From NCBI GenBank assembly GCA_002842515.1, contig PHDC01000001.1, positions 248,001-312,000 of the forward strand: a stretch of 64,000 nucleotides of DNA, written 5' to 3'. A program made the position numbers and the translations under genes. The notes under the pieces are model-generated. The model did not search any database. It was not told where the DNA came from and saw nothing but the letters and a program-made list of their open reading frames with translations. Positions 25,694 to 29,617 of the stretch are shown piece by piece (within the stretch, counting starts at the first letter, position 1; the number at the start of each line of letters is the position of its first letter). The DNA comes from Bacteroidetes bacterium HGW-Bacteroidetes-5. Lineage in GTDB: Bacteria; Bacteroidota; Bacteroidia; Bacteroidales; UBA932.

Positions 25694-26842
25694 TTATTCT
25701 GAATAGTAGTCTGGTGCCAGATCTTTTTGATTATATCTCATTGCCATAACCTGCCCGTATGCTCCGGCAGATCTGATAGCCATAATATCACCTCGTTTAG
25801 TCTCAGGAAGCAGTAGGTTTTTAGCAAAGCGATCACTGGACTCACAAATTGGACCGACAACATCGTATCTCATACCCCTTCCCACAGATGTGAGGTTCTC
25901 AATTTTATGTGATGCCTGGTAAAGCGCAGGTCTGATAAGATCGTTCATACCTGCATCCAGAATTGCAAACTTTCTTCCCTTACCAAACTTAACATAGAGT
26001 ACTCTTGATATAAGCGACCCACACTGTGCCACAATGGCTCTGCCCGGTTCAAAATGTATCTGTTGATATGGCTCTCTTATCAATTTTTTATCAATGATCG
26101 AGAAGTAAGATGCAAAGTCAGATATAGGGGTAGTATCAGGATCATTGTAGTCAATCCCAAGTCCTCCGCCCAAATTCAGATTCTCAATTTTCACTCCTTT
26201 ATCCTTAAAATTGGCAGAGATTTCGTTTACCTTATTGGCCAACATATCAAAGACATTCAAATCTGTTATCTGCGACCCTACGTGAAAGTGGAGTCCTGAA
26301 AGCTTAATATTGGAACACTTTGCTATAGCACTCAACACATCGTCAAACATCCAGTGACTTATGCCGAATTTATCCTGAGAACGCCCGGTTGAAATATATC
26401 TATGAGTATGAGCATCTATATCCGGATTTATTCTCAAGGATATAGAGGCAGTTTTTCCCATCTTCTTGGCAATAGAGTCTATAACCTCTATCTCAGGAAT
26501 TGATTCACAATTGAATGAAAAAATTTCACCCGCAAGAGCAGTTTCAATCTCTTTGTCCGACTTTCCAACTCCGGCGTAAACCACCTTTTTGGGATCAAAC
26601 CCCGATTTGATAGCTAAAGAGACCTCGTTTCCGCTAACACAATCTGCTCCCAAACCGTACTCTTTTATGATATCCAGAATTTCTAAATTCGCATTTGCTT
26701 TAAATGCATAGTGTGCGTGGAACTTATATTTTCTTAGTTCTTTGGTATACAAATCAAGAGTTTTTTTTAAGAGCGATAAATCATAGTAGTAAAAGGGAGT
26801 ATCAATTGTATTAAATCTCTCAACTGTTTTTGTGTCGAACAT
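25694..26842 (-). CDS. lysA: Diaminopimelate decarboxylase
   Basis: PLP enzyme that decarboxylates meso-diaminopimelate to lysine, the last step of lysine synthesis. It is a fold-III alanine-racemase-type decarboxylase of 382 residues. The PLP lysine is in HYAFKANAN near residues 44-52, with HVGSQI near 191-196, the glycine-rich phosphate loop GGGLGIDY, EPGRAIV, and the dimer-interface GPICESSDRFA. The length is slightly short for LysA but usual for Bacteroidota. A related carboxynorspermidine decarboxylase is a possible alternative, since a deoxyhypusine-synthase-like gene is divergent. LysA remains the best call. Confidence 0.88.
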   Translation of the reverse strand: MFDTKTVERFNTIDTPFYYYDLSLLKKTLDLYTKELRKYKFHAHYAFKANANLEILDIIKEYGLGADCVSGNEVSLAIKSGFDPKKVVYAGVGKSDKEIETALAGEIFSFNCESIPEIEVIDSIAKKMGKTASISLRINPDIDAHTHRYISTGRSQDKFGISHWMFDDVLSAIAKCSNIKLSGLHFHVGSQITDLNVFDMLANKVNEISANFKDKGVKIENLNLGGGLGIDYNDPDTTPISDFASYFSIIDKKLIREPYQQIHFEPGRAIVAQCGSLISRVLYVKFGKGRKFAILDAGMNDLIRPALYQASHKIENLTSVGRGMRYDVVGPICESSDRFAKNLLLPETKRGDIMAIRSAGAYGQVMAMRYNQKDLAPDYYSE

Positions 26843-26919: not shown

Positions 26920-26959
26920 TCCAAAATTAATTGTATATACAACTGAAAATTATATCGTG

Positions 26960-28024
26960 ATGAAACCAACTAAGAGAGAGCTCCTGAAAGATATTGTCAA
27001 ACACATAGATGTTACAGCATTTGACTCTTCGTACATAATAGATTCAATGCGCGATATGTCATTTAGTTCAAGAGATACCGCCTCTGCTGCAGACATTCTG
27101 CAGATGATGATAAACGACAAAGAATCAACTAACTGGCTCATTCTTGCAGGTAGCACCTCCGCTGGAGGATGTATGCAGGCTTATGTGGATATGATACGCT
27201 TTAATATGATTGATGCTGTATGTGCTACCGGTGCATCAATTATTGATATGGACTTTTTTGAAGCACTCGGCTTTAAACACTACAAAGGGTCTCAATTTAT
27301 TGATGACACTCATTTGAGAGGCAACTATATAGACAGGATCTACGATACATACATAGACGAAGAAGAGCTTCAAATGTGTGATTCAACAATAAAGAAAATT
27401 GCAGATTCACTTGAACCTCGTCCATACTCCTCAAGAGAGTTTATACACGAAATAGGGAAATGGCTCTCAGTTAATTCGGTTAAAAAGAACTCATTGATTC
27501 AGACAGCTTTTGAGCACAATGTTCCCATTTTTGTACCTGCTTTCAGTGATTGCAGTGCTGGGTTCGGGCTGGTAATGCATCAGGTAGAGAGAATGAAAGA
27601 GGGTAAACCCTATCTCTCTATAGACTCTGTTGCAGATTTTCGTGAGCTCACAGAGGTAAAGATGTCTGCAAAGAGCAGCGGTCTATTTATGATAGGTGGA
27701 GGTGTTCCAAAAAATTTTGCACAGGATACTGTTGTTTGTGCAGAGTGTCTGGGATTTGATGTTCCAATGCATAAATATGCCGTTCAGATTACTGTTGCAG
27801 ATGTTAGAGACGGTGCCTGCTCATCTTCTACACTTAAGGAGGCCAACTCCTGGGGTAAGGTAGACACTGCTCACGAACAGATGGTATACGCCGAAGCAAC
27901 TACCGTTGTCCCTCTTATTATCAGTTATGCATACCATAAAGGAGACTGGAAAAAGAGAGAGGCTAAAAACCACTCCCTCTTATTTAAAAATGGAACGCGG
28001 GGAACCGGAATTCTACTGGGTTAA
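26960..28024 (+). CDS. Deoxyhypusine-synthase-family protein
   Basis: A 354-residue member of the DHS fold family. In eukaryotes and archaea, DHS transfers the butylamine group of spermidine to eIF5A; bacteria lack eIF5A, and bacterial relatives probably act on small amines, for example making homospermidine, or on unknown targets. The protein has GSTSAGG near residues 64-70, CATGASIIDMD near 88-98 and FMIGGGVPKNF near 243-253, and keeps the lysine corresponding to the DHS active-site lysine in NSWGKV (Lys300). I prefer ATG 26960; a GTG directly before it is possible. It is divergent from lysA and ends at a hairpin terminator. Confidence 0.87.
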   Translation: MKPTKRELLKDIVKHIDVTAFDSSYIIDSMRDMSFSSRDTASAADILQMMINDKESTNWLILAGSTSAGGCMQAYVDMIRFNMIDAVCATGASIIDMDFFEALGFKHYKGSQFIDDTHLRGNYIDRIYDTYIDEEELQMCDSTIKKIADSLEPRPYSSREFIHEIGKWLSVNSVKKNSLIQTAFEHNVPIFVPAFSDCSAGFGLVMHQVERMKEGKPYLSIDSVADFRELTEVKMSAKSSGLFMIGGGVPKNFAQDTVVCAECLGFDVPMHKYAVQITVADVRDGACSSSTLKEANSWGKVDTAHEQMVYAEATTVVPLIISYAYHKGDWKKREAKNHSLLFKNGTRGTGILLG

Positions 28025-28119: not shown

Positions 28120-28530
28120 TTATTTATGCTTAGACATTTTGGATTCTACAATAAATCCTACAATAAGACCAAGACCTCCAAAGCAGAGTGTAGATGCTCC
28201 ATAAACAACGCTCATAGATTGCATAGTCTCATATGAAATTGAGCCGGAAGAGCCATACATCCCATATGCTATTACGATTCCGACTAAAAGGCCGAAACCC
28301 AAACCCATCAAAAGCGATCCAATTCTTAAGGATAAAAATTTGTTGCTAAAGTTTTTTCCTTCACCAAAAATTCTTGAAATATCCAAGTTCTCAATATTAG
28401 TGCTGCTAATTTGAGATAGTCTCTCAATAATCATAATCCGCTCTTTCTTCCTGGCAAACAACTCTACCAGTTTATAGAAGGCATAGGCGCCTATTCCGAA
28501 TGTAACCGGAATTGAGATAAATTCCATCAT
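28120..28530 (-). CDS. Small membrane protein, DUF6249-like, divergent from the ECF sigma gene
   Basis: A 136-residue protein with an N-terminal transmembrane helix (about 6-22), a short basic cytosolic segment (ARKKERIMIIERL), and two C-terminal helices (about 68-90 and 105-130, both glycine-rich). The layout resembles DUF6249 membrane proteins of Bacteroidota; the match is from pattern memory and moderate. The gene has its own ECF-type promoter facing away from the sigma-factor gene, so it is a likely member of that regulon. Confidence 0.65.
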   Translation of the reverse strand: MMEFISIPVTFGIGAYAFYKLVELFARKKERIMIIERLSQISSTNIENLDISRIFGEGKNFSNKFLSLRIGSLLMGLGFGLLVGIVIAYGMYGSSGSISYETMQSMSVVYGASTLCFGGLGLIVGFIVESKMSKHK

Positions 28531-28575
28531 ATTGTCAAATTTTAAATTAAAAAAGTAATTTTGTTTTGCTCTTTT

Positions 28576-28601
28576 GACGATATAATTTAAAAAAGGTTAC
28601 A
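28576..28601 (-). promoter_or_regulatory. ECF-type promoter for the divergent membrane protein
   Basis: Read on the minus strand: TGTAAC (28601 down to 28596), exactly 16 bases, then CGTC (28579-28576). This matches the general ECF promoter form (AAC in -35, CGTC in -10, 16-bp spacer). It mirrors the sigma-gene promoter, and the two -35 boxes form one inverted repeat. Confidence 0.7.
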
Positions 28602-28605
28602 GATT

Positions 28606-28631
28606 TGTAACCATTAGTTTAGAGATGCGTC
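28606..28631 (+). promoter_or_regulatory. ECF-type autoregulatory promoter of the sigma gene
   Basis: TGTAAC (28606-28611), exactly 16 bases, then CGTC (28628-28631), followed by TAAT. This is the classic ECF promoter form. The -10 is only about 10 bases from the sigma ATG, so the message would be almost leaderless. Confidence 0.72.
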
Positions 28632-28641
28632 TAATAGCTGA

Positions 28642-29205
28642 ATGAAAAGAGACGAGGAGCTGCATACAATAGAGTTAATCCGTAATGGGAACCTGGAGCT
28701 TTACAAGGTTATTGTAGAGGAGTACTCTCCCAGAGTACTCTCCGTAATAAGAGGTGTCTTGCCCTGTAAAGAGGACGCAGAGGAGTTGGCTCAGGATGTA
28801 TTTGTAAAAGCATTTTTCTCTCTAAATAAATTCAGGGGTGACTCCTCTCTTTCAACCTGGCTCTTTAGAATTGCCTATAATATGTCAATTTCTAAAACCA
28901 GATTGAAAAAAGTTAAATTCGTACCAATTGAAAGTGCACAAATTGAGTCAAATAATTATTTCGATATCTCTGAAGAAGAGAGATATATAAAAGAGAAGAG
29001 ATTTGAGTTGCTAAACAGAATGTTGTCCTCTCTTGATCCATCCGAGAGATTTTTAATTACTCTGTTTTACAACCAAGAAAAAAGCATTAAAGAGATATCA
29101 CAGATTACAGGAATAGGAGAATCAAATATTAAGGTAAAACTCCACCGAATTAAGAAAAAAATGGGTGAAATGGTGGGTGAAAAAATGGAGGTAAGTTATG
29201 GATGA
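28642..29205 (+). CDS. ECF-family RNA polymerase sigma factor
   Basis: A 187-residue ECF sigma factor. Region 2 includes SVIRGVLPCKEDAEELAQDVFVKAF near residues 33-57 and the -10 recognition segment FRGDSSLSTWLFRIAYNMS near 64-82. Region 4 (about 128-180) has the helix-turn-helix KSIKEISQITGIGESNIKVKLHR. There is no region 1 or 3. It overlaps the downstream membrane gene by 8 bases, the usual sigma/anti-sigma coupling. The ECF-type promoter directly upstream suggests it activates itself. Confidence 0.95.
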   Translation: MKRDEELHTIELIRNGNLELYKVIVEEYSPRVLSVIRGVLPCKEDAEELAQDVFVKAFFSLNKFRGDSSLSTWLFRIAYNMSISKTRLKKVKFVPIESAQIESNNYFDISEEERYIKEKRFELLNRMLSSLDPSERFLITLFYNQEKSIKEISQITGIGESNIKVKLHRIKKKMGEMVGEKMEVSYG

Positions 29206-29617
29206 AAAATTTGAAAAAGATGAGCTGTTAAGGGATCTTCTAAATGAAATCAATTACAGATCTGCTCCCCTATCTTTTGCGGAGAGAGTCTCTTCAAAAA
29301 TTGAGTCAGAGAGAGTAAGAAGAGAGAGGCGAACTGAAACAATTCAGATTATTGTAGTATCACTTTGTGCATCTGCACTATTGATTCTTTCATTTATATA
29401 TCTTAATAACAGGTACTTCAACCTAACCCTTGAAGATTTGCGCCTCTTTAACTCAGATTTTGGAGTTAAACACCTTCTCTACAGAGTAAAAGGAATTTTT
29501 ATTAGTGACGGCACTTTGCTATGGTATATATTAGCTGCAAATACAGCATTACTCATTGTGATACAACAATTTGTACAGAATTATTTGTACAGTTCGGGAA
29601 GAATTGGAAAGAGCTAA
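29198..29617 (+). CDS. Putative membrane-bound anti-sigma factor
   Basis: A 139-residue protein with an acidic and charged N-terminal cytosolic region (about 1-50), which could hold the sigma factor, a transmembrane helix at about 50-68 and a second at about 108-125. I see no zinc-binding HxxxCxxC motif of ZAS anti-sigma factors and recognise no named family. The call rests on its 8-base overlap with the ECF gene and on topology. It may work with the divergent membrane protein as a signal-sensing unit. Confidence 0.65.
   Translation: MDEKFEKDELLRDLLNEINYRSAPLSFAERVSSKIESERVRRERRTETIQIIVVSLCASALLILSFIYLNNRYFNLTLEDLRLFNSDFGVKHLLYRVKGIFISDGTLLWYILAANTALLIVIQQFVQNYLYSSGRIGKS

Follow-up and report, generated by a model that had tools for sequence, protein, structure and literature searches.

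Two probable back-to-back ECF-type promoters between an ECF sigma factor operon and a divergent DUF6249-like gene in Bacteroidota

We analyzed a stretch of 64,000 nucleotides, here called the window, from Bacteroidetes bacterium HGW-Bacteroidetes-5. The intergenic region studied here separates an ECF sigma factor gene from a divergently oriented gene for a small membrane protein. The relevant features are as follows.

28120-28530, minus strand: DUF6249-like small membrane protein, 136 aa (PF19762, E 9.2e-6, 26 bits)
28576-28601, minus strand: predicted ECF promoter of the divergent DUF6249-like gene; predicted start near 28569-28567, giving a leader of about 37-39 nt
28595-28612, no strand: dyad GGTTACA-GATT-TGTAACC, read from the sequence, sitting where two -35 boxes meet
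28606-28631, plus strand: predicted ECF promoter of the sigma / anti-sigma-like operon, assigned by motif and conservation; predicted start near 28638-28640
28642-29205, plus strand: ECF sigma factor, 187 aa (Pfam Sigma70_r2 2.6e-14, Sigma70_r4_2 1.1e-11; TIGR02937 4.1e-28)
29198-29617, plus strand: probable anti-sigma factor, 139 aa, assigned by position, hydropathy and an AF2 model; its start overlaps the sigma stop

The original prediction had named a sigma factor, an anti-sigma factor and a divergent DUF6249-like membrane protein. The flanking genes agree with this and encode an ECF sigma factor, a protein with two membrane helices and a DUF6249-like protein. The sigma factor exceeds the cut-offs for Sigma70_r2 and Sigma70_r4_2 and reaches 98.1 bits with TIGR02937 (cut-off 42.9), and the solved structures found for it by sequence are general ECF sigmas. 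The 139-aa protein has short N-terminal helices followed by two membrane helices (hydropathy; AF2 mean pLDDT 81.4). It matches no family over its cut-off (the best Pfam match is only PF13800, E 0.022), and none of 41 downstream-gene products matches a Pfam anti-sigma family at E <= 0.01. Therefore, the label “anti-sigma” follows from position and topology, i.e., a gene that adjoins and overlaps the sigma gene and a product with a short N-terminus and membrane helices. With these properties, the 139-aa protein is a probable anti-sigma factor. The divergent protein carries an RKKER motif after its first hydrophobic stretch, and its AF2 model consists of three long helices (mean pLDDT 80.3). Because its 26 bits fall under the curated PF19762 cut-off of 33 bits, we call it “DUF6249-like”. 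A sequence search of solved structures with this protein found nothing better than E 0.19.

The dyad is perfect over 7 bp, with the arms GGTTACA (28595-28601) and TGTAACC (28606-28612) flanking the loop GATT (28602-28605). Outward from it on the plus strand, the -35 box TGTAAC (28606-28611) is followed by 16 bases and then by the -10 box CGTC (28628-28631). The minus strand has the same arrangement, with TGTAAC at 28601-28596, 16 bases and CGTC at 28579-28576, seen on the plus strand as GTTACA (28596-28601) and GACG (28576-28579). Direct reading thus confirms the dyad and both outward TGTAAC-N16-CGTC elements exactly as originally described. TGTAAC-N15..17-CGTC occurs twice in the 64-kb window, both times at the paired site, against 0.07 expected occurrences; 1 of 100 shuffles of the window had two. 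An AAC-type -35 box, a spacer of 16-17 bp and a CGTC-type -10 box that are kept in relatives are the sequence properties of autoregulated ECF promoters, and all were found here. A suggested genome scan for the half-site revealed no enrichment of TGTAAC/CGTC in the organism's own genome (7 matches, versus 16 for the reversed pattern).

Orthologues were gathered by protein, not by motif, which yielded 21 loci in the genus and 23 other family loci with upstream sequence (L013, which has none, was left out). Both motifs are present at a 16-base spacing in all 21 genus loci and, with a spacer of 15 or 16 bases, in 18 of the 23 other family loci. Not one of 22,000 shuffles in this genus and family test had both motifs. 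The earlier idea of two ECF-type promoters, one for each divergent gene, is therefore supported by the spacing observed in relatives. Within the genus the 16-base spacers have drifted, with 41% and 56% pairwise identity, around motif positions that are identical by construction, as all 21 loci matched exactly. The divergent pair is also specific: it occurs in one place each in 47 of 398 family genomes, while the reversed-pattern control occurs in none of the 398. In an order-wide draw, the pair was found in 11 of 295 genomes and the control in none.

Five family loci lack one or both motifs. L028 and L029 have neither motif, and they have weaker sigma matches. L018 has one side only, its exact sigma-side site being lost by one base, and a weak DUF6249-like ORF (E 4e-4) is present there. 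L016 and L026 likewise have one side only: no DUF6249-like gene was found upstream and the divergent promoter is absent, while the sigma promoter is kept. However, L026 extends only about 440-450 bases upstream, and the DUF6249-like gene could sit further away there.

The distance between the two -35 boxes is not fixed. Across the protein-found relatives this gap ranges from 2 to 58 bp, while each -35 box stays 15 or 16 bases from its own -10 box. An alignment across relatives had been proposed as a check; in the relatives, the spacing of both promoters is kept, but the dyad as a unit is not conserved. Given that the gap drifts while both sites persist, the elements behave as two separate ECF promoters, and a dyad is present here because two inverted -35 boxes stand 4 bp apart.

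A dyad that stands between divergent genes and has perfect 7-bp arms around a 4-bp centre could instead be an operator, bound by a dimeric regulator. However, a protein that grips both arms would not tolerate the variable arm distance in relatives, whereas two promoters would, and the spacing from each arm to its own CGTC is preserved. The outer (seventh) base, moreover, is symmetric in 10 of 19 sites whose arms are close and in 46 of 54 sites whose arms are apart, among the matches listed, and in L016 and L026 the right promoter stays although the left one and the DUF6249-like gene are missing. We regard an operator as very unlikely. Alternatively, the dyad might act as RNA, in the form of a hairpin, an attenuator or a bidirectional terminator. 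A consensus scan does flag the dyad and a T-tract as terminator-like on both strands, and the scanned 1.7 kb has 4 terminator-like sites versus 1.0 expected. Yet the dyad lies upstream of both predicted starts and so outside both main transcripts, and in relatives the loop can be tens of bases long. An RNA function thus appears extremely improbable.

The original prediction also proposed that the touching -35 boxes may prevent two polymerases from binding at once. If this contact were a device, there would be room for one polymerase and the two transcripts would be mutually exclusive. The centres of the -35 boxes are 10 bp apart in the window and, judging by footprint size, two holoenzymes at this distance would probably clash. 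Steric overlap is therefore plausible in this genome, and gaps of at most 5 bp recur in at least three genera (g1, g6 and g21). However, the gap is 3-5 bp in 9 of the 21 genus loci and 22-31 bp in the other 12, and it reaches 58 bp in family loci. Since it varies so widely within one genus, contact is not what selection keeps, and the proposal is not supported as a design. There is also no preferred helical phase between the promoters. The gaps had seemed clustered, with R of 0.21-0.26 at a period of 10.5, but other periods scored higher in every set and we rejected phasing. For the matches listed, exp(-nR^2) at 10.5 is 0.001 at 95% identity (n 100), 0.04 at 80% (n 73), 0.06 at 65% (n 55) and 0.2 at 55% (n 33). 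In sum, steric exclusion does not explain the arrangement, a conserved collision design and helical phasing are not supported, and we find it unlikely that contact is a device.

A scan of public genomes with the exact pattern gave at least 118 stretches; among the titles of 80 of these, 67 name Bacteroidota and 13 name other groups. Combined with the family and order loci, there are at least 158 records with at least 127 distinct cores, some genomes being included twice. Among the matches listed, an ECF sigma gene lies on exactly one side in 144 of 158 records and on both sides in none; of the 14 records that have no ECF sigma gene, five are near a locus end. Setting a minimum sigma score of 120 bits reduced the 115 distinct sigma-linked sites among these matches to 105. 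In the ten lower-scoring sites that were dropped, no DUF6249-like partner was seen, and three of them have no partner ORF listed. Because the 105 sites were found by exact pattern, their motif conservation is by construction.

A DUF6249-like gene lies opposite the sigma gene in 100 of the 105 sites among the matches listed, and the other five are cut by a locus end. The model for DUF6249-like proteins was refined in iterations on the same set that was then tested, and Pfam provides the independent check: 49 of 52 aligned DUF6249-like proteins, including that of the window, match PF19762 at E <= 0.01. On the other side, 97 sites among the matches listed could be tested for a downstream gene, and 83 of them have an ORF that starts within -30 to +60 nt of the sigma stop. 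Of these 83 ORFs, 58 overlap the sigma stop, and four lack a membrane helix and are possibly read in the wrong frame. The downstream proteins are mostly of 110-160 aa with two membrane helices. The trio of sigma, anti-sigma-like and DUF6249-like genes, which had been proposed as the core of the regulon, is a conserved unit among the matches listed.

Some matches to the pattern have other surroundings. Eight loci (L092, L096, L102, L138, L146, L168, L171 and L179) have divergent TGTAAC-N16-CGTC pairs with lower-scoring ECF sigma genes, and with other divergent partners or none found. Some of these loci are titled Acidimicrobiia, Acidimicrobiales, Doudnabacteria, Anaerolineae or Alphaproteobacteria. 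In a Nostoc punctiforme record (L148, 466-543), the match is one perfect 78-bp palindrome and no ECF sigma gene was found beside it; it is probably a different kind of element.

The sigma gene of the window starts with an ATG located 10 nt after CGTC, and an in-frame TGA directly precedes this ATG. Such short distances are common. Among the matches listed, the first possible sigma start lies 9-13 nt after CGTC in 76 of the 105 sites, and nine more reach this range with the next in-frame start; of the remaining 20, eleven belong to one genus (g21, assigned by matching cores), all with TTG-called starts. In 47 of the 76 sites no further start codon occurs within 14 codons, so the choice of start is firm there, whereas the other 29 leave room for a later start. 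In most of the 100 loci among these matches, the start of the divergent gene lies 26-71 nt beyond its own CGTC. ECF promoters usually initiate 7-9 nt past CGTC, so a start codon at 9-13 nt would leave a leader of 0-5 nt in most loci. The sigma mRNA should therefore be near-leaderless, as predicted from the distance between CGTC and the start codon. This point is absent from the original prediction. Leaders under 10 nt are reported for about 3.7% of cases in B. thetaiotaomicron (PMC7366714) and leaderless transcripts for 5.5% in F. psychrophilum (PMC9723704). In a phylum where, by these reports, short leaders are uncommon, a -10 box 9-13 nt before the start is a clear prediction about translation.

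A further element upstream of the sigma gene is TAATTTTG (28556-28563, plus strand), a possible primary-sigma -7 box of the form TAnnTTTG that points at the sigma gene. Among the matches listed, 17 of 72 representative sites have a box of this type no further than 60 bp upstream, versus 5 for a reversed control. The element could allow basal sigma transcription with a longer leader.

In 25 genomes of the genus, TGTAAC-N16-CGTCWWW finds the promoter pair of this gene trio (hereafter, the module) in all 21 that have an orthologue, as well as 19 other places. At 13 of these 19 places, a second ECF sigma gene begins 10-21 nt further on. In L215 and L245, the motif stands 19 nt before similar ORFs in two genomes. 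A tighter consensus with at most one mismatch gave 3, 5, 4 and 5 matches in four genomes, of which two each are the module; the reversed control gave 5 to 10. Apart from the module, the four genomes have no match in common. The regulon is likely narrow and local, although weaker sites would be missed by a motif scan. The small regulon that had been envisaged thus agrees with the scan as far as it goes, but a second ECF sigma gene shares the core motif. One instance is in the genome of the window (L036, G000 C1:2101431-2101456), where the ATG of a different ECF sigma gene follows TGTAAC-N16-CGTC after 11 nt, and other genus members are similar. A very short sigma leader is therefore not confined to the module.

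This second sigma factor raises the question of which protein reads the module promoters. They could be real but read mainly by another ECF sigma in a cascade, and not by the adjacent one. The L036 site suggests that specificities may overlap, the 13 genus matches before the second ECF sigma gene could mean that this other sigma reads the module promoters too, and sigma-sigma cascades have been proposed (PMC3817407). By contrast, the promoter pair is tied to the sigma / DUF6249-like locus. In the genus the seventh base also differs, with TGTAACC or TGTAACT at module sites and TGTAACA at the 13 second-sigma sites. In addition, among the matches listed, both sites of a locus have the same second base after TGTAAC in 46 of 73 representatives, versus 29.3 expected. 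This agreement fits one shared reader, but relatedness can also cause it, and it is absent at gaps of at most 5 bp (8 of 19 versus 7.7 expected, among the same matches). We consider a cascade unlikely; cross-talk between the module sigma and the second ECF sigma is possible. We also looked for sigma residues that track the base after TGTAACC. The top columns (F142, K147, S69, H168 and E6) are scattered over the protein, so we claim no specificity residue.

The observed sequence, spacing, conservation, gene linkage and start-codon distances are very probably explained by two independent promoters of the same specificity that stand back to back and are read by the sigma factor of 28642-29205, with the dyad as a by-product. 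From these observations we infer sigma recognition, the start sites, the anti-sigma role and the function of the DUF6249-like protein as follows. One promoter would drive the sigma gene and the overlapping anti-sigma-like gene, and the other the divergent DUF6249-like membrane gene. Upon release from the anti-sigma factor, sigma and RNA polymerase would start transcription in both directions, and the operon would then amplify itself, with production of the membrane protein keeping pace. The sigma mRNA would begin about 0-5 nt before its AUG, and the leader of the DUF6249-like mRNA would fall a little short of 40 nt. The dyad would not be an operator, but would simply arise where the inverted -35 boxes meet.

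The pairing of the two genes extends beyond the family. In a class-wide search, the N16 pair was found only in the window's own genome among 247 genomes, and in none of the 239 from other orders. This search alone is misleading, because in other classes and orders the spacer of such loci is 17 bases long. A search for the DUF6249 family in 99 phylum genomes gave matches in 27. An ECF sigma gene is near DUF6249 in 27 of 28 loci, with flanks of about 1.5 kb on each side and the window's own locus not counted. The arrangement is divergent in 24 of these 27; neither L267, whose sigma gene is on the same strand, nor L274, where no sigma was found, counts among the 24. TGTAAC with NGTC is present on both sides in 14 of the 24 divergent loci and on the sigma side in 16 (i.e., two have it on the sigma side only), and eight have neither. 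L281 is scored here as a miss since its called sigma start overruns the site, although a site exists on its DUF6249 side. The distance between TGTAAC and NGTC in these loci is mostly 17 bases, and none of 7,200 shuffles had both. The pattern was picked after viewing the sequences, and its strength is thus somewhat flattered; the gene-pairing count is unaffected. In all 16 sigma-side loci, a possible start lies in frame 9-12 nt past GTC. L283 and L287 have a further start at 7 nt, and the ORFs called in L266 and L277 already begin before the site. Given the sigma linkage and the paired motifs outside the order, the sigma-DUF6249 pairing seems older than Bacteroidales. Only tentatively, and with some doubt, we suggest an old module found throughout Bacteroidota, consisting of an ECF sigma, a two-helix anti-sigma of no known family, a divergent DUF6249 protein that would act as a co-regulator or sensor, a promoter pair read by the sigma and a near-leaderless sigma mRNA.

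Parts of this arrangement are ordinary. ECF sigmas usually autoregulate (PMC3817407) and TGTAAC / CGWC is given as the SigX promoter of B. subtilis (PMC12153292), so an autoregulated ECF operon and such a promoter are, by these accounts, already known. As in operons of this kind, the sigma gene has its own promoter type and the probable anti-sigma gene lies directly downstream (PMC3817407). The module adds an inverted promoter of the same type that faces a fixed divergent DUF6249-like partner, and its sigma start is mostly 9-13 nt from the -10 box. SigX-type promoters share the core (-35 TGTAAC, -10 CGWC; PMC12153292), but belong to a different phylum; the spacer here has 16 bases, and other Bacteroidota loci mostly have 17, with a variable first base in the -10 box. 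In the Das/Dma pairs (ECF21) of Bacteroides, an ECF sigma of Bacteroidota likewise has a membrane anti-sigma as its neighbour (PMC13088901). Dma, as described there, reaches the outer membrane with a beta-barrel, unlike the two-helix module protein of mostly 110-160 aa. The SM6 class of Flavobacterium psychrophilum has mapped starts with a CGT -10 box and includes one ECF sigma / anti-sigma operon, but it is linked to type IX secretion genes, and its description mentions no divergent DUF6249 pairing (PMC9723704).

In the literature searched, whose scope leaves out the main ECF classification and the EcfO work, we found no account of a fixed DUF6249 partner in divergent orientation, of the paired promoters or of a short leader of the sigma mRNA. 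In the same literature, the one work that names DUF6249 concerns a family of plant kinases. A class I anti-sigma neighbour is reported for only 6% of Bacteroidetes ECFs (PMC7406223), and a phylum-wide module, if real, would fill part of this gap. The three-gene unit and its predictable promoter pair are thus a testable handle on both the anti-sigma gap and DUF6249.

The genome of the window has a second module outside the window (L210, G000 C1:1719258-1720465). It comprises, one after another on the same strand, a DUF6249 gene that exceeds the cut-off with 74.6 bits, an ECF sigma gene and a small gene downstream; TGCAAC-N17-CGTC stands in front of them. Within the window, a gene of the deoxyhypusine synthase family (PF01916, E 3e-90) occupies 26957-28024 on the plus strand, in a bacterium. 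It adjoins the ORF 25694-26842, which resembles a PLP-dependent decarboxylase, and the two genes are perhaps involved in polyamine synthesis.
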